Below are positions 16,672 through 57,483 of a DNA stretch of 64,000 nt, one piece after another. Under the pieces are notes generated by a model. The model saw only the letters and a list, made by a program, of their open reading frames with translations, did no database searches and had not been told where the DNA came from. The DNA comes from Bryoerythrophyllum caledonicum. Lineage: Eukaryota > Streptophyta > Bryopsida > Pottiales > Pottiaceae. The DNA lies in contig OZ020515.1 of the NCBI GenBank assembly GCA_963971425.1, forward strand, positions 12,044,291 to 12,108,290, given 5' to 3'. The stretch's first letter is position 1, and the number at the start of each line of letters is the position of its first letter. A program made the position numbers and the translations under genes.

Positions 16672-18528
16672 TCATGATCGCCAGGCGGTGGCACCGAGGA
16701 TGGGCATGTTGTCCCAGCCGAGGACGACGGCGCCGTTCTCAGTGCGCAGCGTGTAGCCGCTCTGGGCGAAGTAGAGGTGCAGGAGGAGGCGCGCCTGGCT
16801 GATGGCGCGGGCGCCGATGGGCGAGGCGCGGAAGCCCGCCATCTCCAGTCGGCGCGACCAGCTCACAAGCGGCTCGTGCCGGGTGATGCGGTCCTCGCCC
16901 TCGCACGCCAAGATGTTGCGGATCTTCTGGCCCGTGAAGAGGCGCTCTACCTGCTGCAGCGCGTACGAGCTCGGGGGCAGTGACGCGTCCAGCGCGTCGT
17001 ACACCGCGGAGTAGTAGCGCAGGCACTCGAAGAAGCGGTGCAGGAACGTGGGGCTGTTGTGGTCCGTGTCGTTCTCCGTGAAGGCGAGCACACGCGGCTG
17101 GAGGGAGCGCAGGTCGCACAGGAAGCGGTGGAAGCGGTCGTCGCCCCACGCGAGCAGCTGGTGGAACTGGTTGACGGCGTTGACGCACACGACCTCCCAG
17201 TCGCGGATTTCCACCATGCGCACGTCGAAGGCTGGGAGGTCGACGATGAGCGGACAGAACTCAAACGGGACCTGCAGATTGAGCGCGTAGTCCTGCAGCT
17301 TCTCCCGCGAGTGGTCCAGGTCGTCGGACTTGCCGATGGACGTGATGCGCAGCTTGGGCGGGCCGCCGGGCCGGAGCGCCAGCGCCTGGATGAACGCAGG
17401 CCATTGCATGCCGCGCCACAACGTGTTCAGGTCGATCACGTGGACGTGTGCCTCACCCTCGACCGCGTCCAGGATGATCTGGTTCAGCGTCAGGTGGGGC
17501 AGCTTGATAAACGGCGTGTATTCGTAGATGCCGCTGAACGCCTGCATAATGTCGAACGGCGGCACGTCCTTGTCACGATCCAGGCCCTTGAAACGCCCCG
17601 ACGTCGCGGTATGCGTAATGCGCGCGTGCAGCGCGTCCACGAACACCGCCCCGAGTCGCTGCATGGTGGTCATGCACGGGACCAGCATTGCACTGAGCCG
17701 CGCCAACAACACGTGCGCCAGGTCCATCTGCTCGTTCGAGACCGCTTCTGCGCAAGCCAGCAGAAGATGCACGAGCTGCAGTCCCGTCGCGGAGTTTGCT
17801 TGCTGCCCGCCCGACTTCAGCTCGGGCTTCACGATGCTCGCCGTGTCCAGCACCTTGATCATCGCGCCGTCGCTCTGCTGCACCGCCATCGCCTCGCTCC
17901 CCAGCAACCGCCCCGGGTAGTGATCCGCCAGGTACCCCGGCCCCGGCCGCAGATCCCCGGCAAGAATCTCACTCTCCAGCTCCGTCACATTGTACTCCCC
18001 CGCGCTCGTCGTACACAACAAACTCACACCACCCCCGCCATAGCTCGGAAACTCCCGCGCCCGGGGCACGATTCGCACCACCTCTCCGAGGGTTCCCGTG
18101 CTCCCCGAGCTCTGGGAGCCCTGCAGCTTGCCCCGCATCTGGTAGTCTGAGCCCTGATAGTCGCGCTTGCGTGATAGAACGCCCGCGTCCGGTTGCATAG
18201 GGACGAACTGGTTCGGATTCTGCAGCCCGACCTGCCCTGGATGCGGCGCCGATGGGCGCAGCGACGAGAACGACGTCTTGCCCTGCAGCATGCGCTGGTA
18301 CTGGTCGTGGTACTCGAACGGCGACTGCGGCGACAACGAGTTCGGGTACTCCCACGAGTCCTGCGACGACGAGGGCGGCAGCGCGTGCGGCGCCACCGCC
18401 ATGCTCGACGTCGACGTCGACCCGTCCCATTGAAGATCCGCGACAGGCGCCGCGTACACGGCCGCGGGTTGCTGCTGCTGAAGCAGCTGCCGGTGCCGGA
18501 AGATCGACGCCAACTCCCCGTCTGCCAT
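16672..18528 (-). CDS. GRAS-domain transcriptional regulator
   Basis: Single-exon gene for a 618-residue protein starting at the ATG at 18528 (MADGELASIF); the codon just before it, TTG, is open but not a plausible start. The first ~245 residues are low-complexity, with Gln and Ser-rich stretches, and show no DELLA motif. Residues ~250-617 form the GRAS domain: leucine-rich region I (LVHLLLACAEAV), the VHIID block as VHVIDLNTLWRGMQWP (~362-377), ALRPGGPPKLRIT, a PFYRE-like RFFECLRYYSAVYDAL (~498-513), IRNILACEGEDRITRHE and a C-terminal SAW-type GATAWRS. GRAS proteins act in the nucleus as co-regulators of transcription. The ACEG...RHE block and the LGW...TAW end recall DELLA/PAT1-type members, but I cannot place the subfamily. 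It is GC-rich in an AT-rich setting and intronless, as is usual for the family. Length and motif order look intact. Confidence 0.95.
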   Translation of the reverse strand: MADGELASIFRHRQLLQQQQPAAVYAAPVADLQWDGSTSTSSMAVAPHALPPSSSQDSWEYPNSLSPQSPFEYHDQYQRMLQGKTSFSSLRPSAPHPGQVGLQNPNQFVPMQPDAGVLSRKRDYQGSDYQMRGKLQGSQSSGSTGTLGEVVRIVPRAREFPSYGGGGVSLLCTTSAGEYNVTELESEILAGDLRPGPGYLADHYPGRLLGSEAMAVQQSDGAMIKVLDTASIVKPELKSGGQQANSATGLQLVHLLLACAEAVSNEQMDLAHVLLARLSAMLVPCMTTMQRLGAVFVDALHARITHTATSGRFKGLDRDKDVPPFDIMQAFSGIYEYTPFIKLPHLTLNQIILDAVEGEAHVHVIDLNTLWRGMQWPAFIQALALRPGGPPKLRITSIGKSDDLDHSREKLQDYALNLQVPFEFCPLIVDLPAFDVRMVEIRDWEVVCVNAVNQFHQLLAWGDDRFHRFLCDLRSLQPRVLAFTENDTDHNSPTFLHRFFECLRYYSAVYDALDASLPPSSYALQQVERLFTGQKIRNILACEGEDRITRHEPLVSWSRRLEMAGFRASPIGARAISQARLLLHLYFAQSGYTLRTENGAVVLGWDNMPILGATAWRS

Positions 18529-19560
18529 CAATTCTATGCGTTTGATTCGACCGATCTCCCTTTCACTAGAGTTTTCCTAATCTGACCTGCATGTGCGTTG
18601 GATCACTGGCGCTCCTCTCGCGCTCCGGGGCCGTATAGATTCGTCTGCTCTACAGACGCCATGATCACTCCCATCTAGTACAACCTAGTACAGCAGAATG
18701 ATGAAGCCGTGGTCGAATTCTAGCAAGTCCAGCGCCCACAGCTCTGGTCGTTGTTGCTGGTTGCGTAATCTGCCCCGGGAACTCGAAGCGGTTCGGTCCA
18801 TGACAGCATCGCTCACACGCATTCTGCGCGCACTGCGAATCCCAGCGGAATATTCCGCGGCCCCTGCTCCCCGTGAACCACAAGCACACGGTCAAATCTC
18901 CGCCCCCGGGAACCCTTAGTCCTCCATCAATCCTTACTGTCACAAAGCACAGATGCTTCCACAGCAATCAAACAACTCTCTAGAATCTCTAAATCATTCC
19001 TAGATTCGCTTCTCCGCGTTCAAGCTCACAGCTTCCTTCCCTCAACCAGTAAACCAACAACTTCCTAAAAGCAAAAACTTCAAAACGTCTCTCACCACCA
19101 CGAAACCAAAGCCATAACAACGTCCTCACCACAACCAAAAACCTCCGAAATCCCCTCGCCACGAAACGAACAAATACTCTCACAACTTCCTCAGTCTACG
19201 ACAAAACCCCAAAACCAAAACTCGTCACGAAACAACGACCGAATCTCCACTTCAAACGCAACATCATGAGTTATCTCCGCTAGAAACACCCACCTTGTGC
19301 GAGAGATAAGGCCAGATTCATCGCCTTATCGTATCGACATCTCCTTCGGCAACCATGACGGTCCTGTGTCGGTAGAAAAGAGAGAGAGAGAGAGAGAGAG
19401 AGACAGATAGAAATGAGAGAGAGAGATCTTCCGACGGAGGTGCATCGAGAAGAATCATAAAGGAGGTGAGGAGAGGGTTAGAGGTTAGAGGAGAAGCGGA
19501 AGTTAGTTTAGTTCGGAGCTAGTTGCGGCTGGAGGAGCGGGTCAGCGGACAGTAGTGCAC
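18529..19560 (-). promoter_or_regulatory. Upstream region of the GRAS gene
   Basis: About 1 kb upstream of the GRAS start, of mixed composition with no supported ORF. The transcribed strand is pyrimidine-rich in parts, including the GA/CT tract at 19381-19403. It probably holds the 5' leader and promoter; no TATA box or start site can be fixed from sequence alone. Confidence 0.4.
19381..19403. repeat. (GA)n microsatellite upstream of the GRAS gene
   Basis: An uninterrupted run of AG dinucleotides from 19381 to about 19402, with a second short GAGAGAGAGA at 19415-19426. On the gene's strand this is a CT tract, common in plant 5' leaders and core promoters and a potential GAGA-binding site. 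Confidence 0.85.
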
Positions 19561-32919: not shown

Positions 32920-34145
32920 AAGACTATGCTTCACCTAAACCACCCCAAAAGTGCCTCTTTAAGATGAGATGTTGCACGTTGAATTGAAACAACTTTTACT
33001 ATTTTCAACTATAGGATCTTTAAATTAACCTCTAAACTTCGTTGACAAATTCACACAAAAAAACTTCAAAATCGTTGATTATAGTATAAAGGGTGGAGAA
33101 AGAAAGAAATACATTTATTTTGAATTTGATCCATAGGGTTTTAATTAAAAGTTCTTAAATAACATGCTCACAAATTTTCAAAAACTTTGATTGCATGGAT
33201 TGCAAGATTTATAGTGTTTAAAGTAAAGAAAAATGTTCATTTTCTTTAGAGTGTTGAGACTATTAGCACACTTTGACTGAACTTGGTGTCAAATTTTTGC
33301 ACTTTCCAAGGTTTGAAATTGATACCATCAAGTTGAACATGATATTAATTCCATAGACATCAATTTCTAGACGTAGAAAATCGGTGAAGTATAATCAATA
33401 AACTGTACAAGCAGTGGAGGTTAAAAAAGCTACCATTACACATTTTAGGTTTTTGTGAACTAAATATGTGTCAGTATGAGAATCTAAATAGTCAATAAGA
33501 TGGTTTACACTACATCTTGCAGAAGGAAAATTTAACCCCTAAATTCACTTGACAATTTCACACCCTAAACACTTCAAAATTATTGATTCTAGTGCAATGA
33601 GTAAGGAAGGAAACAAAGATTTGTATATCCAATTTCAACCATAGGATCTTATTTAAGAGCTGATAAATAACATACTCTCAAAATTTCATCAACTTTGATC
33701 GCACGGATTGAAATATTATAGTGTTTGAAGTAGAGGCAACAATTCATTTTCATCCCTACGTTGAATGGATCAATAGACTTTGACTTCACTTGGTGTCAAA
33801 GTTTTGCACTACACAAGGTCTAAATTTCATACCATCATGTTAAACCTTTAAGGATGACTGACCATATATGGTGCATTTTGGCACAAGAATCTCTACAGAA
33901 AGCGCTACATGCCACCTTAAAGGAAAAAATAGAAGATGACTTAGAGGTGGAGTAAGTTGGGCATCTATTGAGACCATCGCCTCGACAATTGATGCAAGCA
34001 TCATTGAGCTACAATGATTTCCATGAAATGAGTTTGTAGACTATTATGTTGAAAAATACCCATTGCGTAGATGTCATTTTGCATGATCTATAACACTTAA
34101 AGATCCTCACAAGCCAAAGAAGTTCATTGGCCTTAAATTGTTAAG
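32920..34145. repeat. Nest of family F, B and E fragments
   Basis: A family F start (32930-33027, GACTATGCTTCACCTAAACC) is interrupted by a family B left end (33028, ACCTCTAAACTTCG). That copy is cut by a second B left end (33535, ACCCCTAAATTCACTTG), itself cut at about 33841 by the minus-strand family E copy (33844-34140). The order suggests successive insertions: F oldest, E youngest. Confidence 0.65.
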
Positions 34146-34290
34146 CAAGAAGAAGAAGAACTTCGGTCCAAGCTTAGGGGACCGGAGTGAATAAAGTGTT
34201 TGTTAGTACCACCATTAAACCACTGTCTACTATACAAAAATTTAGTAGTATCGAACTACTCCCCCCTCTTGAAAGTAGACACTATCTAAC
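34146..34290 (-). repeat. SINE tail fragment
   Basis: AAGAAGAAGAACTTCGG, hairpin-like CGGTCC...GGACCG, GAATAAAGTGTTTGTT and CTACTCCCCCCTCTTG match, in inverse order, the tail half of the SINEs at 13.3 and 30.6 kb. The tRNA-like head is absent. Confidence 0.6.
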
Positions 34291-34379
34291 CAAAGACTAG
34301 TAACCAGTAACCAATATCCAAGGACCAAGGACCAAATTAGAGCTACAAGGCACATTGTGAGGGAATGAAATGTGGAGGT

Positions 34380-35990
34380 TAAGTGTGTGCTTTTTGGAGG
34401 TTTTAGGGGGTATCATTTGGTTCGGGGAGAGGTTGGTTAGTTTCAAATTTTTGCTTGTGAAGGAGAATGGACATCACATGTTGGATAGCAATGGTGTTAA
34501 TTTTTGTGAATGTCTTTTTAATTTGATTGATGAGGATATTGAATGTTTTTTTGAGACTTTTCATAGATGGAATAAAGGTGGTAGCTCCAACACCGGCTGC
34601 AATGACAATAAGGGGGTCAACTTTCCATCCAAGAGCTATAATGTCATTAATAAGTGGTTGGTATTTATTAAAAAAAAAATCAATTGCTTTTGGAGAAAAT
34701 CTTTATTACAATATTTGGATTCGATAAATTGGATAGTGATGTATATGTTAATGTGGTCCGGTAGGAGGCCTGTATATGGTAGTCCTCTGACCCATAGCAT
34801 GTCTGGCTTAAATCTGGCGTTGCAATGGCATCTTTGGGTTCCACATGTGCATGGGAGTAGCCATGGGGGGGACCCGCATTTTCTAGTGAATTATTGTTGA
34901 AGGTTCCGGCGTTTGTAAGTATGAAGCATTGGGATTTGTTTGACGATACAATTAGTTTCCAGATTTCCCATACCGCTTTGTTGTGTCTTTTGATGATTAG
35001 GGAGTGTATGTGATGGTTTTGGCATTTAGAGAGTACATGTAGCCATGTGTCCGAGTCCATGGAGGTGCATATAGAGCATGTTATGAATGAGAATCTTTCT
35101 ATTCCAAAGAAGAGTTGTTTGTGGGCATTTTCCATGTATTGTCCGGTACAAAATTTGATAAGAGATGTTTTTTGTAAATATGTAGTTGTAGGATTTTTCC
35201 AAAAGTTTGTAGAGAGTTCGTTATCAATGTTGTTGTTACCGGTCCATTTGTCTATGGTAGGAAAACTTTCCGAGATTAAATCTAGGTTGTGGATTTGGTC
35301 TTGTCTGTTGAGATATTTATCCATAAATCTAATGGGGCCTTTGTCCAGGGTGTCTTCCATAGAAGACTAACTATCTCTGTGGAAGTTGTATGGAGTACCG
35401 TGGGCATGTTCATGTGGGTGTTTTGCATTTCTATGACATTTGTCTAGTCCTTCTTTAGCTAATTTATTTGCTTGATTGTTTCCTTCTATATTGACGTGTG
35501 CTCTAACTTTATGGAGGGTTGTAATTTGTATGCGGTTTTGTACCATTTGAACCAGAGATGTTGGTATGGCTTGGTTTGGGTGGCTATTGTGGAGGGTAGG
35601 GTGTGTTATTTGTGTGTTTAATAGATACAATACGTTTGTACAATATGTAAAGATGTGTGTGGGTTTATTAGCATATTGTGTAGTGATAATTTGAAGTGTT
35701 TTATGGAGGGCCATCATTTATGCTCTGAGGATATTTTGAAATCCATGTAATCTTTTGGATATTCTTATTTCTTTGGTGAGGTTGTGTACGCCATATCCTC
35801 CTTTTCTCTATGCCAATGTGTTGGACTTATTTCTGTTGGTTCTTCGAGGAACCATATGCGTAGTAACCATATGCGGGCTCAAATTTTAGAGGGGTGTAGT
35901 CATGGTATGTGTAGTAATGGAGGTGGTGTAGTGAGGCGACCGTGTGTTATGTTTGCATATTTGAGTTGGGACCATTTTTTATTGCGATTC
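34380..35990 (-). mobile_element. LINE 3' part with RNase H domain (decayed)
   Basis: Minus strand. From about 35810 downward an RNase H-like domain begins (GGYGVHNLTKEIRI, FQNILRA), continues in the frame 35717-35367 (THIFTYCTNVLYLLNTQI; KVRAHVNIEGNNQANKLAKEG, last ~110 residues) and is followed by the 226-codon frame 35360-34680 with a zinc-knuckle-like TWLHVLSKCQNHH and RHNKAVWEIWKLI. A C-terminal block YQPLINDIIALGWKVDP...GVGATTFIPSMK lies around 34660-34560. This order (RNase H, then a Cys/His region, then a C-terminal tail) fits LINE ORF2 3' ends. Reverse transcriptase and endonuclease are not present; the copy is 5'-truncated and carries several stops and frame changes. Confidence 0.75.
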
Positions 35991-36039
35991 ACTAGGGTTT
36001 GGGGAGGTTTAGATGGGGCTTTTTTTTAGAATAGTTGGC

Positions 36040-47321: not shown

Positions 47322-50300
47322 CAAACTTTTTATCTCCAATGGACATGTTTGCAATGTGAGGAGTTGAAGACCTTGACTTTGTTGTATGCTACTCAAAATC
47401 TTAAGGTTTGTCATGTAGTATATGAAGTGATTCTACAAGCCCTTGACTTCTAATGGCCATAGCTATGAAGGAACATGGTTAGGTCTAGAGAAGCTCTTTG
47501 GAGACAAAGAGGTAGTCTCACATTCCATATCCTACAGGTGCAGTCTCCACTCCTATTGAATAGAAATTTTGGAAAATGAGTTTACAAATATGAAACAATG
47601 TTGAGAAACAATTTTGAAATAATTTTGAAACAATTTTGAAGAAACAAATATGAAACATTGTTCCTCACCATCACAAGAAAAAAGGAAAGAAAACTCATTT
47701 GTCCGGCTAATGAATAGAGGTGTTCAAAGTGTTTAGTGTTGGTTACAATTTTAGTATTCAAAGTATTGGTTTTTATAAAAGTGTCCCCATTACTCCACAT
47801 TTCTTGGAAATCACCAAAAAAACAGGGTGAGATTTGAAGACACGTTGATTCTATGTTTAATCTAATTTTTGGGTAGATCTTTGTTCAAGATAGTGCTGGT
47901 AGAAGATTGTTTGTCTTTTTATTGCATATGTGATGGTTTGTGAGTGGCTCACAAACAAAAAACCATCTTGTTTGATATTGGCGGATGCCTGTTAGGCGTG
48001 TTATGGGTGGGGAAGTTCATTTTTGGAAGGCTCATTGCATTGATGTAAACTTTTCCATTTGCATGTCTACGATAGAGAGGTTTTTAGAGATACATTGAGA
48101 TTCTCAAATTTGTAAAGTTTCATATAACAAGAATTTTTTTACCACTTTTGTACTTATTCTCATGGTATTATACCTCCTTTCACTAAAGTATTTATTTCCA
48201 CATTGTATACCCTTTGATTTGACCACGAATTTTGCACACAATTGGCTAAGACCATATGGGTCATATCGGTAATGGTTTCAAACACTATTAATGTAACAAG
48301 ATATGCTAAGTCAAAGTGGGTTGACTTTGCCATGCAAGGGGGGAAAATAACTATTTCTTGCACTCTAAACGCTATAGTCTTCATGCTCGTGCGGTGGATT
48401 GCTATAAAAAAAATAATAGCACATTTATGAGTCTATTTTAAGGTCTCACGGTTAAAATCCTAAAATGTCACTCGAAAATGTCATTTTTGTGCCTCTTTGT
48501 GGCAATGGCAATTTCAAATGCGTTCTTGAGAAAAATTGTCAAGGAACTTTTGAGGTAAAGATAAATGTTGACGATGGAGGTCATATAATATATATGTGCA
48601 TGTCAATTAGTAAAGTTGCTATCAACAAAATATTGTTGAAAATATTGGTTAGGACTCTCCATTTGTTGTGGTTATCGATCTTTCTTTACACGACAGCTAT
48701 CATGGGACCTGGCGTCGAGGGCCTCTCCACATCGTAGTCTTTTAGCGTAGATTAGTTTGTTACTAATCTATAGGTTTAGGGACGTACGACAGCGCGCCAC
48801 ATTCATTCGTGGATGTTTTCCATCCACTTAGGGTTGTGTGTGTATGCGTGTAGCGCCGCACACGTCCTTGACTTGACATCTTCGTCAAGTCAAGCTTAAT
48901 CAGTGAGTTAGAGAGTGTTGAGTGATTACCTTTGCTTGTAAGTGGTTGTTTATCATTAGTAAAGGCTCCACATTCTCTTATGCTACTTACACTCGTTGAT
49001 TCTCCCTTTGTGGAGTGCGAGACGCATGACTGCCATAGTCATTCACTAGTCATTCACTAGTCATTCCCTTGACAAAGACCTCATGTTTCTACTCCAATTT
49101 CCACCATTTTTGCATTTGAAGAATTTGTATAAAATGGAAAGAGTGGAGGAAGAATGGGTTACAAATTAGACGTTGTGTTAGTACTAGTCTTAGTGGTACT
49201 TGAGGTTTTGAGTGTGAGAAAGGGAGCTCATGCTCATGTTTTGGAGTTGATGGCATTGAGTGCTTGAGAGAGGGATCCCCCAATTTTTCATTAACCCATT
49301 ACAAGACGGAGTATCATTCAGCGGATAGTCCCATTGAGAGCTGACTGGACCGCGACTTGGTGGGGACAAGGGCTGGAAGACAATAACCTACGGGTTGTCA
49401 GTCCGAGAGTCTATGGAATAAATGGAGTAGGGTTGGAAGCCTGAAGTCAACGAGAATTTCAAATAGAAAAGAGGCGTGGATCTCGCCCAGGCGATGGTGC
49501 ATGGGGCTGCATAGAACTGACAGCCCATCGGGCCAGTGGGCGATGATGCAGCTGGACTGCTCGAATCCAAATTGCTGGGCTAAAGGGCTCCCCGGAGTTG
49601 ACGCGGCAACACGTCCGACTGTGGCATGAGTCTGCGGGCTAAAGCTAAGGGCTACAAATTGCTGAAAACGGCCAATTGCGTAAGTTTTCCTACCAAAATT
49701 TTAGAAGTCTTTAGAGTTGATGCTTCAAAAACTCAACTTTTGGAGTTTTAGTCATTTTGCGATTCCAACTTTAGATTCGGGTTTGTGGACAAAATCTAAG
49801 ATTGGTGGTGCTAAAATTTGCTAGTTTAAATTTTTATTTTATTTGTTTTGCTAGTTTTTGTGACGCCCAAAAATAGTCACATGTTGATGTGATCTTTTAA
49901 AAAAAAAGTTAGTGCTAAACTTCGGGAGTATATTACAAGGGCATTGTTACTCGGATGTGAGTGACATTTATACTTACAGTTAGGATTTTTGCCATTTGAT
50001 CTAATTTTAGTGTTAGTTTGGCGTTTGTCGTGATTATCCACCAATATATGTGATTTCATTGGAGGGTTAGTATTTTTAAACACCGCGGTCAATCTCCACT
50101 ACTCCCTTAGTATTAGATATTGGACGGGAAACACTTTTTAATGTTTCACTTTATACTGCACGTTTGTGACTTGGGCCATTTACTGCAGGCGTGTGCCAGT
50201 GGCTCTGATCCCTCGTCTTTTCTGCTTTTATGTTGTTGGGGGAGAGGATCCAATTTTGAATTATGGATTCTTGTGCGGTACCTCCCCTGTGTTGCGGGTT

Positions 50301-50547
50301 TCTTGCCGATGTTTTCCGGTGGCCCCGTTTTCTGTTGAATCTAGATTGTGATAGGGTATCGTAGGGGTGAAGTTGGGTTCATAGCCGGCAAGACCTTTCT
50401 AAGTGGGGGGTTGTGGTTGGACCTATGCTAGCCGGAGGTGATGACCAGTAAACCACAAAGTTTGGTGATTTTGTAGGTCCAGGTTGCCTGTTTGTACCTA
50501 TACCCTTTAAATAGTACCCGTAGATAGATCCCGAGGTACTTATTGTT
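47322..50547. other. No recognisable gene; repeat fragments
   Basis: Includes a reversed family C fragment (about 48050-48500: CCTTTCACTAAAGTATTT, TCGTGCGGTGGATTGC). At 49038-49075 is a short tandem of TAGTCATTCAC. A GC-richer block at 49290-49660 has no readable gene. 48700-50547 could be leader or LTR sequence of the retroelement downstream, but I could not find a matching LTR pair or a primer-binding site. Confidence 0.4.
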
Positions 50548-52640
50548 ATGTTGAGTACACGGAGTCGATATTATTTCTCCCCCTCACGAGACCACTTGGA
50601 GAGTACTTCCACGACAGACCTTAGGCCAGGGTCGGATACCGACGAGGCTTTTGAGTATGTTTTGGCATTGGATACCGACCGTAGGCTTCGGGTCTGGGGC
50701 ATAGGTAGGTTTGACGACATGGATGACAATCTCCGACATGTTGTGCGGGACATGTTCTTGAGATGAGCTGGGGGCATCTCTTTGCCCGATTGGCGGCTCC
50801 GATTCTAAACGTGGATGAAATAGAAGCGCCTGCGGACTCCGTCATTTAATGACTGGTATGCGTTCGAGCTCTTGCCCCAACATTTGGAGCTGGAGGCCCT
50901 CCGGTCATACAAAATGTCTACGACGCACAGCTGTGCCCTGTTGAGGAGTATTGGCGCCAGTGTGTGGAGTTGATTACTGCGCTCAAGGACAGTGCAGTTG
51001 CCCAACTATTGACTTCCATCGAGGAGCCCAAGGTGGAAGAGAGTTTCATCGGTGAGTACTCCAGGAACAAGGGCATTGATGTTGTGGCCGAACGGTCTAG
51101 CATAGGGCCATGTCACGTTTGGCCGTGGCAACACGTGCAGCATTGATGGCGGTTGGCAATCCGCCAGCCTTCGATTATTTGGCGCAATTCATGGCGCACT
51201 TGGAGATGGAGTACGGGGAATTGAAGCGTGATCACATGCAGCGCATCCAGGATTTCCGCTGAGAGAAGGAGGATACCCCACGCACTATGTATACTCGGTT
51301 GGCGCGGTTGTCAGCGGAGACCGGTGATGTGTTCACGGAGCGCCAACTGGTGAAAATCTACATCTCCAAGATGGATAAGCGGATGGTGGAGTTGATTAGT
51401 CCGCATCTTCTTTTTCGGTATCACGGAGATGCCTCTTTGACGCATGCGTTCGCCGAGGTAGAGGCACTTGATAGAGTGTTAGGCGTGAGCGAGGCCATGG
51501 ATTTGGTCACGGCGCTGATGAACACTGCTAAGGCCAAGAAGCTTGCTACCACGACCGGTAGCTTGGTGGAGGCACAACCTAAAAAGGTTGTGCATTGTTG
51601 GACTAGTAGGAAGGCGGGTCACATCAAGGGGGATCCCAATTGCTCCAGAAATGGGCCATGCACGGTGAAGGCCAAGCCCAAGATCAAGGCGGCCAAGATT
51701 ATAGAGAAGATTAGGGGCAAGGGCAAGAAAATCGTGACATGCTCTCACTGAGGCAAGACTAGCCACAGTGATGAGAACTGTCTTGCTCCACTCGAAGAAG
51801 CGCCCAGGATCTTCGGCTACTGAATCGGATGTTGTGAAGACACTTCAGGCCGAAATGGCGGAGCTCAAAGAGGAGAGGAGACGATGGCTTCTTTGGAGCA
51901 GTCCTCCAGAGATTAGTCCTTGACCTCTTTGATGTTGCAGCTCGGTTGGCATGAGAGGGACGTAGTGTGCGTCCAGGGGTGATATGTTTGGTGAATGACG
52001 ACTGATTCATGGTGGTTGGCCGTGCGGACGGCAGTTCTACTCGAGCTACCCCTCTACATGTTATGTTGGACTCCAGAGCTCAACTAGTGATGATTGGCAA
52101 GTAGCTAGTGTAAGATTTGGATCTAGGTGCTTCCGACCTTGAGCCTTGCCCATTTACAATTGTTACATCGGTGGGGGTACAGAGAAGGCCATGGGCTACA
52201 CCCGACATCTGTTGCAGTTGATGTTTGGCGTGGGATCTGGTCCTTTCTTCTCTCACGTATTTCTCCAGTGCGCTGTGACTGACGCCACCAACTACGACAT
52301 TTTGGTGGGTCAACAGGCGCTTTATTCTGACGATTTTGGGGTGGATAACTGGATAGAGGAGGCCAAGATTATGCCTCGCTGATCTGCCGATGATGGCAGA
52401 ATGGAGCCCATTACGGTTGTTTTTACAGCTAACGCGGTGACTTCTACGGTGGATGCTATGTTTGGGTGTATTGCTTTGGCATCCAATTTGTCATGTGGTT
52501 CTATGCTTTTGGAGGAGATATTTGTTTTTTTGTCGGAGGTAGCGGAATCACGTGAGCACAGATTAGCGGGGATCTTTGCATGTCATTGCAAGGATTCCCT
52601 TCCTCCATGGGGGACTCAATTAGAGCCAGGGTTGTCTACA
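50548..52640 (+). pseudogene. Fossil gag and protease region of the retroelement
   Basis: The gag portion shows an RLARLSAETGDVFTERQLV / YISKMDKRMVELI stretch typical of retrotransposon gag, followed by a Lys-rich stretch with Cys and His spacing of the zinc-knuckle type. The protease portion has TPLHVMLDS and, ~60 residues on, NYDILVGQQALY, a common Ty3/gypsy aspartic-protease ending. It is broken. Base composition is distinctly richer in GC than the flanking repeats. Confidence 0.65.
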
Positions 52641-52799
52641 TAGACAGAGAGGGGCCCAAAGACAGCAGACGGACATGACGGACAACACTTTTTGGCGGAC
52701 AGTTGCGTGAAAAAAAACTTACAAACCCTAAATCAAATTTACAACGTACCCCCTAGTAAAACACGTGTGCCGACACGTCAGACCGCTTTCCACGTCACA

Positions 52800-54420
52800 T
52801 CATAGGGCCGGGCGCACACCTTCGGGCCGCGCGCGCAGCATTTGAGGTCGGACGCGTATAAAAAATGGTCAGGCGCTTACCTAAAGGGGTCGGGCGCGTA
52901 CGTACAAACGCTAAGTGCGTACAATTTTTATTTATTTATTTATTATGCGCGCGCCCAACCCTTGTAAGCATGCGCCTGACGTTTTGGATCGGGCGCGTAC
53001 GAATAAGAGCTGGGCACATACGTCCAAAAAAATTAAAAAATGTATTATTAATTTTTTTTGTACGCGCCCAATCCTTATAAGCATGCGCGCGACCTTATGG
53101 ATCGGGCGCGCACGCCAAAAGAATTTTTAATTTTTTTAATTTTTAGGGTGTGCGCTCAGCCTTTGTAAGCATGTGCTTGACCTTTTGGATCGGGCACGTA
53201 CGTACAAGGGCTGGGCACGCACGCCAAAAAAATAAAAAAAATAAAAATTTAGGCGTATGCGCCCAGCCCATGTATGTACGCGCCCGACCCCATTAGGTAC
53301 GCGCCTGGCCCCTTGAGGTACGTGCCCGACCCCTTTAGCAACGCGCCCGACCCCTTTAGGGACGTACACAACTTTTTTAAGTATGCGCCCAACCCTTTTA
53401 AGTTTGTTCCCGACCTTTTTAAGTATGTGCCCTACTTTTTTAGGTACCCGCGAAACCTCTTTAGATACGCGCCCAACCCCTTTAAGTACGGGCCCAACCC
53501 TTGTAAGCATGCACCTAACCTTTTGGATCGGGCGCGTACGTGCAAGGGCTGGGCGCATACGCCTAAAAAAGATTTTATGTATACATTATTTTTTTGGTAC
53601 GCGCCCAACTTTTGTACGTATCCACTCGGCCCTTTTTACTCTTGAGGTACGCGCCCGACCCCTTCAGGGACATGCCCAACCCCTTTAAGTATGTGCCCAA
53701 TTTTTTTCGATACGCGCCTGACTCCTTTAGGTACAGGCTAGACCCCTTTTGATACACACCCAACCCCTTTAGGTACGCGCTTGACCCCTTCAAGTACGCG
53801 CCTGACCCTTTTTAGTACGCGCCCGACCCTTTTTAGTACTCGCCCGACCCCTTTAGGTACTCGCCCGACCCCTTCAAGTACACGCCCGACCCTTTTTAAT
53901 ACGCGCCCGAACCCTTTATATACTCAACCAACCCCTTTGAGTACGCGCCCACCTCTAGCGCGCGCGACCCAATGGATACGCACCCGACCCGTTTTAGTAA
54001 CCCCCGACTCCTTTAGGTATTCGCCAGACCCCTTTGAGTACGCGCCCGACTCCCATTTAGCGAACGTGCCCATCCCCAGGGCGCGCGCGACCCAATAGGT
54101 ACGCGCCCGACCCTTTTTAGTACGCGCCCAAACCCTTTAGATACTCGCCCGAACCCTTTAGATACTCGTCCGACCCCTTTGAGTACGCGCCCGACTCCCA
54201 TTTAGCAAACACGCCCACCCCCAGCGCGCACGCGACTCAATAGGTACGCGTCCGAACCTTTAGGTACGCGTCCGAACCTTATTAGTACGCGCCCGACCCT
54301 TTTAGGAACTCGCTCGACCCCTTCAAGTACGCGCCCGACCCCCATTTAACGAACGCGGCAACCCCCGAGCACGTGCGCGACCGAATGGGTACGCGCCCGA
54401 GAATATGGGGCAAGCAATCG
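52800..54420. repeat. CpG-rich tandem array, left block
   Basis: Dozens of degenerate ~20-22 bp units, consensus close to GTACGCGCCCGACCCCTTTA. Units are inverted (GGGTCGGGCGCGTACG) at 52820-53000 and mostly in the plus sense from 53250 on. Occasional units read GCCCAACCCTTGTAAGCATG. The many frames this array keeps open (for instance Pro/Thr/Arg-rich ones) are repeat translations, not genes. Confidence 0.9.
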
Positions 54421-54968
54421 AAGGAGGATCGCACATTAAAGGGTCAAGCCCGCAAGTTGAAGGGTCGCCGTGCGCGCACTCTTTAAAAAATTTAAATTTA
54501 AATTTTTATAATATTTGGGCATAAGCGCCTCTACCGCAAGCGCGACCCTCCACTGTACGCCCGCAACCTTCCAATTGGCGAACTCGACTCTCCAGTGTGC
54601 GATCCTCTTTGAATCGCTTGCCCCATAATCCCCCCCCCTCTATCTCCCCTCCCTTTTCATTGACTCGCCCTCACTCCTTGTGTACCCGCCCGCTCTTCTT
54701 TTGTAGTGACCCGCCCCTCTCATATAGTCGCATGTCCTCCTTGCACACTTATCAATCTCCTTTGCATACACATCCATGCTCAACACGAATACAACTCGTC
54801 CTCTACTATTTTGTGTTTTTGAAATTCCTTAATCTCGTTGAATTCTTGCTAGTGGCATAATGAAGATGTGGACCATGTATAAGCCTCTTTCATCTTTGTG
54901 CCCACCTTTCCTAAGCTCTTGTCCACCCCTTATATGTATAATGTTGATTCCTTTTCACCTATATCATA
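54421..54968. other. Spacer within the hAT-like element
   Basis: After the array the composition turns pyrimidine-rich (54590-54800), then AT-rich. No gene; an 87-codon frame at 54597-54860 looks like chance. Confidence 0.4.
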
Positions 54969-54970
54969 TA

Positions 54971-55337
54971 CCGTAGGTGAACCTCTAGTTCAGCACCTTA
55001 ATGCCAAATAATTAATTAAAGTGAAAAAATGACATTCGGCATTCAAAATTACAATAATGTTATTTTTGGCAAGAAATCAAATACTACTATATTTGGCCTG
55101 TTTTGGCACCCATGGGAATTGAACTCAAGACCTTGGGATTCCAAACTCAAGTGCTAATGCATGATTGCCATGGATGAAGACTTTTCCAAGCCTTAATCCC
55201 CTTTGATGTCTCTACATGTGCCAAAATCTGTAAATATGCAATTTTTACAATTTCGGCATTTTCAAAAAAACATTTTCCACTTAATTCGGCATGGGCTTTT
55301 CTAATTATTTTATGCCGGACTAGAGGTTCACCTACGG
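54971..55337. mobile_element. TA-flanked MITE, 367 bp, with a tRNA-like core
   Basis: Perfect inverted ends CCGTAGGTGAACCTCTAGT / ACTAGAGGTTCACCTACGG with TA outside both (54969-54970 and 55338-55339). In its middle the minus strand reads GCATTAGCACTTGAGTTTGG and GTCTTGAGTTCAATTCCC, resembling the A-box/B-box halves of a tRNA-derived SINE. Nested inside the hAT-like element. Confidence 0.88.
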
Positions 55338-55339
55338 TA

Positions 55340-55715
55340 TTGTCTTTCTTTGATTAAAAGTGTCGTCATTAACTATTATTGATTTCAAAGATTGTCAAGG
55401 TATGTGTATTTTTGTATTTACTTTTGGCAATCACGTACACAAAATCATTTATACTTGGCCATGGGCTATGGCCTTCTTAATTAACAAGGATTGCAACAAT
55501 TGTTCATGTAATAATTGAATAAAATATTGTAAATGCCATTCTAGACTCTAATTTCTTTTTAACCATAGAATTTGTCTTGTGTTCTTGCTTTTTTATTTAA
55601 GCAATTAACACAAAATTAATTGTAATGATAATAAGAAGGTGATGCATCCAAATATAAATGTAAATGTTGTGTATGCAGATTATTCTAGATTATATGCAGA
55701 TAAATCTAGATTGTA
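55340..55715. other. AT-rich spacer within the hAT-like element
   Basis: Nothing recognised apart from a short duplicated word (AGATTATTCTAGATTATATGC-like, 55677-55710). Confidence 0.4.
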
Positions 55716-55719
55716 ACAC

Positions 55720-56300
55720 GTACTTAAAGGGGTTGGCTGATACTTAAAGAAGTTGGGCGTGTCCCTAAAGGAGTCGGGCCCGTCGCTAAAGGAATCAGGC
55801 GCGTACCTTAAGGGGCCGGGCGCATACGTAAAGGAGTCGGGCGTGTACGTACAGGGGTTGGGCGCATACGCTCAAATTTTTTTAAATTTTTTTTTGGGCG
55901 TACGCGCCCAATCCAAAAGGTTAGGCGCATGCTTACAAAGGCTGGGCGCACACAACACAATTTTTTATTATATTTATTATTATTATTTTTTATAAAAAAA
56001 TCCGGGCGTATACGCCCATCCCTTGTTCGTACATGGCCGATTGAAAAAGTCGGGCGTGTGCTTACAAAGGCTGGGCGCGTACAAAAAAAATAAAAATAAA
56101 AATTGTATGCGCCCAGCCCTTATACGTACGCGCTCGACCCCTTTCAGTACGCGCCCGGCCCCATTAGGTTCACGCCCAGCCTTTTAAGGAACGCGCGCAA
56201 CCTTTTAGGTACGCGCCCAACTCCTTTGAATACGTGTCTGACCTATTTTTGAACTTAGAGTGCCCGAACAGTATGCGCCCGCCCCCTGTTAGTACGTGCA
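55720..56300. repeat. CpG-rich tandem array, right block
   Basis: Same ~20-22 bp unit family as 52800-54420. Units to about 55865 are in the inverted sense (GGGGCCGGGCGCATACG), and from about 56110 in the plus sense (TACGTACGCGCTCGACCCC), separated by AT-rich runs. The arrangement makes the element partly foldback. Confidence 0.85.
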
Positions 56301-56469
56301 CGTTTTCTAGTATAAGTGTCAACCACGTAGTTGCCTTCGTGGCAGGGGGTAAGTTGATTTACCTTGTGTTCTGGTCAAACCTGCATTGACCCTTATCGGA
56401 CGGACAACAACCTTAATTGGACGGACACTACGAGGCGGACGGACACCAGAACAACCCTGATTGGAGCTC

Positions 56470-57172
56470 ACTCGTCGCAGTCGGGAGATTGTGGATGCTC
56501 TTGATGCTCGACATCTCTTAGTGGACTCTTCCACGCTGGTGTTGCTTTGTACTATTCAGTGGCGACCACCGGAGGAGGGTATTACCCTTGTGGAGCTATT
56601 TGCCGATATTGGTACGGGGCTCGCGGTTGTGTTAAAGGCCAAGCTCAAGGTACGACGGCATATCCACGTGGATAGTGGCTTTGCAGCCAACCGTGTCGCT
56701 CAGTTGTATTGAAAGCAGTTACCACCTTGTGCAATTTGAGGGTATTTTGGCAAGTTGCCGCGTGATGTGACGTTGATCAGTGAGGATGATCTTTGTCGGT
56801 TAGGTCACATAGTCTTGGTAATTGCTGGATGGTCTTGCCAAGGCCATTCACGGGCAGGCAGTGGACGTCGCTTGGATGATCTATAGTCGGGTCTCTTTGG
56901 AGATTTGTTGAGGCTCATCCAGTGGTGGATCACCCACCAATTGACGCCACCGGGGTACATTTTTGAGAATGTATTCCCATTGAGGAATATACAGACAAAG
57001 GTGCGTGAGGATGGGGCATACATCCATCACCTTCTTGGAGCCCCCACATTTGTTGATGCTGCGGCGTTGGCCTGTTACGCCCATTGGCCACGTTGGATTT
57101 GGACCAACATGACATCGTCCACAACGCTCACCTCGGCACTTGCTCAAGTGCAACGGCCTGTGCGTCGTTAGG
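56470..57172 (+). pseudogene. Fossil C5 cytosine methyltransferase-like domain of the retroelement
   Basis: Three family signatures occur in the right order: a SAM-binding motif I-like LVELFADIGTGLA followed by HVDSGFAANRVA; a motif IV-like loop region with CQGHSRAGSG; and a motif VI-like PPGYIFENVFPLRN. It ends with a conserved-looking stretch reading HLLGAPTFVDAAALACYAH. C5 methyltransferases transfer a methyl group from SAM to cytosine in DNA; target-recognition and late motifs are not readable here. The region is broken. It directly follows the hAT insertion and is in the same orientation as the gag-protease part. Confidence 0.75.
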
Positions 57173-57483
57173 TCGATGAAGTCATCCAAAGATTTAATTG
57201 TTAGATTGATTATTCATCACTCTAAATGATTATTAAATTACTAGATAAGTTTGGTGGTCTTTCAAGTAGAATCATTTGAAAGCCATTTTTCAGAGTGAAA
57301 GAGAGTTTGCATGAGATATCATGAATATAGATCACCTTTCTCTCCCTTGAGTTGATATTAGAGATTGTGAACTATCTAAAGCTCAAATTGGCTAGTTAAA
57401 ATGAAGAAAAGGTTATCATATTATACCCTCAGGTCACAGTAAGATGACTTCAATGTAATGGTTTCATTGTTTTCTGATGAGAG
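57173..57483. other. No recognisable gene
   Basis: AT-rich stretch between the retroelement fossil and the TauE/SafE-like fragment. Nothing recognised. Confidence 0.4.

Follow-up and report, generated by a model that had tools for sequence, protein, structure and literature searches.

Results

A methyltransferase-bearing retroelement copy in the window

The window, a 64,000-nucleotide stretch of the genome of the moss Bryoerythrophyllum caledonicum (contig OZ020515.1, positions 12,044,291 to 12,108,290), contains on its plus strand a decayed and truncated retroelement copy (48642-57179) that carries the first part of a predicted DNMT3-type cytosine-5 (C5) DNA methyltransferase gene. The copy is a member of subfamily 2 of a gypsy-like family in which the methyltransferase domain usually lies between the protease and a UAG stop that precedes the reverse transcriptase (RT). 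A first-pass annotation made from the sequence alone had placed a retroelement fossil at 50548-57172, with gag-like and protease-like sequence and three C5-methyltransferase signatures on one strand. The signatures lie where they were placed (LVELFADIGTGLA within 56461-56712, IFENVFPL within 56887-57171 and CQGHSRAGSG between them), but the element begins upstream of the annotated start, at 48642, and opens with the tail of a B repeat, which meets an A repeat at the junction ACACGACAGCTATCA; the order at the 5' side is thus B-end, A and leader. The gag and protease assignments were borne out by tblastn with the first open reading frame (ORF1) of L018, an open copy elsewhere in the genome (Table 1). 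The description as a fossil suits the window copy but not the family, which has long open copies.

The methyltransferase of L018 matched the window with an E value of 7e-113 over 250 amino acids. The window domain is cut off at about 57179, and two of its motifs are altered (ADIG replaces AGIG, and ENVF replaces ENVP). None of the six open pieces of the window copy matched a Pfam family when searched alone, because the fossil is too broken; profile evidence for the 56.5-57.2 kb region came instead through its homologue in L018, which matched PF00145 (E 3.3e-12). Comparison with L018 gave no match to an RT or integrase anywhere in the window, as the annotation had also stated.

The 3.8-kb gap between gag-protease and methyltransferase in the window exists because a DNA transposon of 3833 bp inserted there. 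Its terminal inverted repeats (TIR) are CAGGGTTGT and ACAACCCTG, and it is flanked by an 8-bp target duplication with one mismatch (ATTAGAGC and ATTGGAGC at 52619-52626 and 56460-56467). From the TIR and the duplication length we take it to be of the hAT class. About 560 bp of L018 sequence between the zinc knuckles and the protease are missing from the window copy.

Table 1. Parts of the retroelement copy and its nested insertion, in window coordinates.
Feature	Position	Strand	Basis
B-repeat end (last 54 bp)	48642-48695	+	90.7% identity to B of L018, positions 52-105 of 105; joined via GC to A repeat
5' A repeat	48696-49080	+	83.6% identity to L018 A over 48700-49031; 48700-49080 matches L018 92-459
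Leader, no long frame identified	49081-50529	+	from 49672 within a 79% DNA match to L018 804-3069
gag with zinc knuckles, stops and frameshifts	50530-51875	+	tblastn with L018 ORF1 residues 2-455, 68-77% identity
Protease region	51916-52626	+	tblastn, 65-75% identity; DNA match 51895-52626 to L018 3628-4376
Nested hAT-like DNA transposon, separate from the retroelement	52627-56459		TIR and 8-bp duplication; long imperfect inverted repeats inside
Methyltransferase (predicted DNMT3-type C5), first part	56461-57179	+	85.3% DNA identity to L018 4370-5112; 78.8% amino acid identity over 250 residues

Architecture of the family and linkage of the methyltransferase

The same 437-Mb genome was surveyed with the PF00145 profile, which gave 123 scored matches among 1054 candidates, and 24 places (L001-L024) were examined. 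Twenty-two of these match the element methyltransferase and 21 of the 22 also match the RT-integrase frame; L022 is a more distant lineage. Copy L009 illustrates the full coding plan. Its first frame (1371 amino acids) holds gag, zinc knuckle, aspartyl protease and DNA_methylase in a single open frame, the Pfam matches to Retrotrans_gag and aspartyl protease being below cut-off. After a single in-frame stop, the second frame (1041 amino acids) encodes RT, RNase H, an integrase zinc domain, the rve core and a PHD finger. The order in the element is gag, zinc knuckles, protease, methyltransferase, UAG, RT, RNase H, integrase and PHD finger, the last with Pfam E values of 2.3e-9 and 4.3e-10. Subfamily 1 also has a conserved ORF0 of about 216-223 amino acids before gag (562-1209 in L009, 435-1103 in L013); it had no Pfam match and no clear counterpart in subfamily 2. 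The methyltransferases of the two subfamilies are 46% identical, and subfamily 1 comprises two groups, s1a and s1b, whose methyltransferases are 82% identical.

The annotation had proposed that the genome has or had a family of elements bearing the methyltransferase, and had asked whether the domain is linked to gag-protease and RT genome-wide. Such a family exists and the linkage holds. Subfamily 1 has 108 RT copies. A scored methyltransferase match precedes 69 of them, most often by 1449 or 1440 bp, and a second methyltransferase search added 16 of the other 39. Twenty of the remaining 23 were checked as 401-bp pieces, and the domain was found in 18 and missing from two. The methyltransferase is therefore upstream, on the same strand, in 103 of the 105 subfamily 1 copies examined (three lay outside the examined set). 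By scored matches alone it is upstream on the same strand in 74 of the 108 RT copies of subfamily 2, the other 34 lying outside the examined set. The methyltransferase searches for the two subfamilies scored 91 of 2230 and 92 of 2525 candidates, so that these counts are lower bounds.

The family is large and recently active; the identical A repeats of L009 point to a recent insertion.

Class and conservation of the methyltransferase

A search of solved structures returned DNMT3A, DNMT3B and DNMT3C chains as the best matches (E from 1.8e-14), followed by DRM2 (6e-9), HhaI (5e-8) and, at 0.003 or worse, tRNA-type enzymes; the 51 structure matches included no chain with the name DNMT1 or CMT. With a three-sequence profile DNMT3 again came first, and HhaI then preceded DRM2. 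The motif order is canonical, unlike that of the rearranged DRM enzymes, and the catalytic and cofactor motifs FGGIGTG, PCQG, ENVP and AHRPR are kept in L009, L013 and L018, open copies of all the groups aligned. By these features the domain is predicted to be a C5 methyltransferase, as annotated, and of DNMT3 type, a class assignment made from structure and profile matches and motif order.

Ratios of nonsynonymous to synonymous substitution (dN/dS, Nei-Gojobori method) were compared between s1a and s1b with the pairs L009-L013 and L009-L017, for which dS was 0.6-2.6 and most between-group values were near saturation. The ratio was 0.04-0.05 for the methyltransferase vs. 0.38-0.42 for the spacer behind it. 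RT-RNase H had a ratio of 0.02 and integrase one of 0.02-0.03; gag had 0.05 in the single pair that was not saturated, protease 0.07-0.08 and the PHD finger 0.10-0.11. Close pairs had few changes and scattered methyltransferase values (0.11-0.93), and coding-domain comparisons with subfamily 2 were saturated. As judged from these substitution patterns, the methyltransferase is under purifying selection about as strong as that on gag and protease.

The stop codon between methyltransferase and RT

The stop region was searched in 23 loci (L002-L024) and was alignable in 19. Eighteen of the 19 read TAG-CAA-CCA or TAG-CAA-TCA, and L011 has CAG-CAA-CCA. The bases surrounding the hexamer vary between the groups, and the chance of such a hexamer after a stop is about 1 in 500 with equal bases. 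The motif UAG-CAR-YYA is what we take to be the tobacco-mosaic-type readthrough context, and the UAG preceding RT fits a predicted leaky stop. Because this motif falls between the methyltransferase and RT, the methyltransferase is on the Gag side of the stop.

Repeats and ends

The repeats of L009 consist of one A (372 bp; A1) at the 5' end and B (233 bp), A and B (B1, A2 and B2) at the 3' end, and their copies are 100% identical. L017 and L018 have the same plan (98.6-100% identity); it was not seen in the flanks of L013 by the same repeat comparison. The outer ends are TG...CA and are bounded by 4-bp target duplications in six of six elements (CCTC, AGTG, AGCA, TAGT, AGTG and TCCG), as made by a DDE integrase. 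B1 and A2 meet in the junction GACAGCTGTC (B-GC-A); the element thereby keeps its joined ends as an internal copy, which DIRS elements do too. This junction was found in 10 of 15 pieces searched (it was absent from L013, L023, L028, L029 and L033), and a G run precedes B1 in 10 of 10 copies. We conclude that an element with stored DIRS-like joined ends is inserted by a DDE integrase.

Of 40 full B matches, those at nine loci are spaced 604-605 bp apart, one locus having three, and the other 21 are single among the scored matches; by eye, none of these B matches adjoins a leader match. Some copies carry one more A-B unit at their 3' side (B-A-B-A-B; L016 8592-9901 and C12:23034434-23035875), which indicates that the unit can multiply. 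Inspection of the sequence directly behind A1 revealed no TGG-type tRNA-binding site.

An independent record of the element

A 9285-bp contig filed in an uncultured Synechococcales (cyanobacterial) metagenome bin (CADCWO010000201.1; L060/L061) is a subfamily 2 element whose DNA is 89% identical to that of L018 and whose two frames are open. Its stop region reads TAG-CAA-TCA. The contig contains coding sequence, B, A and leader, in that order, and its ends are identical over exactly 127 bp, so that the assembly closes into a circle holding a single B-A. This is suggestive of an extrachromosomal circle, although collapsed repeats would give the same circular look. The record is a mis-binned eukaryotic sequence that holds a whole-length plant-type retroelement unit, perhaps as such a circle.

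A viral or bacterial origin was considered and dropped: there was one distant viral-contig match (27%), to a stand-alone enzyme frame, and the sole confirmed match in a prokaryote genome was this retroelement record itself. The RT of the element had no match among viral contigs.

Base composition and decay

Whole-sequence CpG and CWG ratios at first suggested a shortage of CpG in s1a and of CWG in s1b. Among synonymous sites, loss of CpG was clear on the plus strand in s1a, s1b and subfamily 2 and on the minus strand in s1a and subfamily 2 (p 0.06 in s1b); for CWG, a clear loss was confined to the s1b plus strand. A self-methylation footprint drawn from CpG and CWG composition was dropped, since the leaders lack matching CpG loss and the test was mixed, and an apparent excess of CpA over TpG was dropped because of the same leaders. 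C/T mismatches at CG and CHG sites were 1.1-2.1 times as frequent as at CHH sites in nine of nine pairs. A hand count of the 148 stops within decayed subfamily 2 RT copies gave 119 TAG, 16 TGA and 13 TAA, a predominance of TAG that fits C-to-T loss at CAG (CHG) sites.

Other features of the window and assembly

An intact GRAS-domain gene (634 amino acids; PF03514, E 5e-100) lies on the minus strand of the window at 16672-18576. The segment at 34001-36000, with a GC skew of 0.285, also matches DNA near L030, L031, L033 and L035 and is probably another repeat. Elsewhere, an intronless bacterial-type C5 methyltransferase (L001, C14:16014858-16018817; PF00145, E 2.4e-64) lies beside a transposase-like frame in a 22-Mb contig and reflects either assembly contamination or transfer. 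A PF00145 match without any element match (L019, C3:9277000-9286900) is possibly an exon of a host methyltransferase gene. Two different plastid-type rbcL/accD/psaB sets (C821 and C894/C590) are present in the one assembly, into which a second plant may have been mixed. The plastid psaB of contig C894 scored highest with the solved chains 7ksq, 6l35 and 8htu (1666 bits, with about 15 differences in 720 aligned positions), which are from Physcomitrium; 9lut reached 1633 bits and 7wfd, from a flowering plant, 1599 bits. In the plastid sequence accD comes next after rbcL. We take these features, together with the GRAS gene, to indicate a moss host.

Discussion

Proposed working of the element

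In our view it is rather probable that the truncated copy in the window is a dead member of a Ty3/gypsy-type family whose polyprotein has a DNMT3-type methyltransferase as a fixed component, and that the element works as follows. The transcript, running from A1 to B2, would be translated such that most ribosomes end at the UAG and yield Gag-Protease-Methyltransferase, with a minority passing it to append RT, integrase and PHD finger. Because most ribosomes would stop there, production of the methyltransferase, and probably its packaging, would match the level of Gag and not that of RT. RT would copy the RNA, and the internal B-GC-A junction would allow the terminal A and B sequences to be restored in the manner of DIRS elements, perhaps via a circle. 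The resulting double-stranded DNA would then be methylated by the methyltransferase, either within the particle or en route to the nucleus. Integrase would insert this DNA with a 4-bp stagger, the PHD finger steering insertion to chromatin in which the H3 tail has a particular state. The new copy would carry methylation on arrival and be quiet and tolerated from the outset. In this scheme the activity of the enzyme, the leaking of the stop, the steering by the PHD finger and the methylation by the family of its own copies are predictions.

Several observations weigh against this proposal. One of the two subfamily 1 copies found to lack the domain (L039/L058, C6:1319700-1321520) has lost the methyltransferase and the stop by a clean in-frame deletion that fuses ORF1, up to residue 878, to ORF2 from residue 42; its frame from the protease region into RT is open and its RT is 98% identical; some insertions may therefore not require the domain. 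Untranslated leaders had no CpG loss of the size found at coding sites and thus no clean self-methylation footprint. The CG and CHG excess among mismatches is ordinary decay of methylated repeats, which host methylation alone would give. The near-saturated dS values count on the same side.

The lack of a footprint in the leaders is what would be expected if the methyltransferase acted outward, its targets being host genes, DNA viruses or rival elements instead of element cDNA, and defence against DNA viruses has been proposed for transposon methylases in the available text of an opinion paper (PMC6338049). We regard outward action as rather unlikely, since the Gag-side position of the domain would favour its packaging with the element's own RNA and cDNA. 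A non-catalytic or RNA-directed role, for instance binding nucleic acid within the particle or methylating RNA, draws on the fact that the evidence for the domain is sequence conservation; it appears improbable given that the four catalytic and cofactor motifs are kept in the open copies of all aligned groups and that the nearest solved relatives are DNA enzymes, tRNA methyltransferases being far weaker matches. In the window the two parts of the element are 3.8 kb apart, and the L058 derivative keeps an open frame without the DNMT domain, as might be expected of a chance neighbour or a passenger. Accidental adjacency is already refuted by the 103 of 105 linked copies, the shared open frame and the nested transposon that accounts for the gap, and the contrast in dN/dS between the methyltransferase (about 0.05) and the adjoining spacer (about 0.4) argues against a passenger; together these leave accident or passenger status with almost no credibility.

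A bolder extension of the proposal, which we offer tentatively and with more doubt than belief, is that the element is a self-contained chromatin device of a land-plant retroelement. Its packaged, Gag-level DNMT3 would methylate its own cDNA, its integrase PHD finger would read the target histone tail, and its ends would be rebuilt from a stored circle junction, with a DDE integrase acting on DIRS-like, circle-derived DNA. Such a device may descend from an acquisition that predates the split of algae and land plants.

Relation to known elements

The closest known element, compared here by description only, is KnitGypsy-Dnmt3 of Klebsormidium nitens, for which the available text of de Mendoza et al. 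(2018; PMC5890265) gives DIRS-like repeats, Gypsy composition and Ka/Ks below 0.2. The two share a non-rearranged Dnmt3 in the polyprotein of a Gypsy-type element, the plan A, coding, B, A, B of DIRS-like repeats with Gypsy domain composition, and purifying selection, the moss value of 0.04-0.05 falling under the reported 0.2. The host is an alga there and a moss here, and the portion of that paper available to us has no mention of a leaky UAG, an integrase PHD finger, ORF0 or 4-bp duplications. The same portion describes SymbioDIRS-Dnmt3 and SymbioLINE-Dnmt, dinoflagellate retroelements with a C5 methyltransferase. SymbioDIRS-Dnmt3 resembles the moss element in having Dnmt3 in Pol and A, coding, B, A, B repeats; the dinoflagellate elements use a tyrosine recombinase or the endonuclease of a long interspersed nuclear element (LINE), whereas the moss element has an rve-type DDE integrase and 4-bp duplications.

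Typical Ty3/gypsy elements with long terminal repeats (LTRs) share with the moss family the order gag, protease, RT, RNase H and integrase, the rve-type integrase, and TG...CA ends with a target duplication of 4 or 5 bp, which in the moss family is 4 bp in six of six elements. They differ in having two like flanking LTRs; because its 5' end has a single A and its 3' end B-A-B, the moss element is gypsy-like by its proteins but is not a canonical LTR element. It differs from DIRS elements, which have a tyrosine recombinase and no target duplication, in its rve integrase and target duplications, and no recombinase family was in the Pfam lists of the element frames. Chromoviruses likewise have a gypsy integrase whose C-terminus bears a chromatin-reader domain; in the available text of PMC6317226 this reader is a chromodomain, in elements with ordinary LTRs and no methyltransferase, in place of the PHD finger found here. 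The element frames had no Pfam match to a chromodomain behind the integrase. Orchid Ty3/gypsy elements with an N6-methyladenosine (m6A) RNA demethylase domain, as far as PMC9289625 was available, are a parallel case of a nucleic-acid-modifying enzyme captured by a plant element, with another enzyme and substrate.

As far as their available texts go, PMC12344493 mentions DNMT3 in streptophyte and dinoflagellate retrotransposons, citing the 2018 work, and PMC6317226, PMC9033089 and PMC10508981 describe no such elements. Among the open-access papers listed by the searches, none reported a methyltransferase retroelement from a moss, a gypsy integrase bearing a PHD finger, or a leaky stop behind a methyltransferase.

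The 2019 opinion cited above (PMC6338049, in its available part) argued that methyltransferase-bearing transposons are absent or have vanished in land plants, and the available text of PMC5890265 places methyltransferase retroelements in dinoflagellates and one charophyte alga. A large, recently active moss family would overturn that argument. With its hybrid of split repeats and a DDE integrase, the family falls outside the usual division between LTR and DIRS elements. Mosses would offer tractable plants in which to ask why a parasite carries its own silencing mark and how a mark on fresh cDNA affects silencing.

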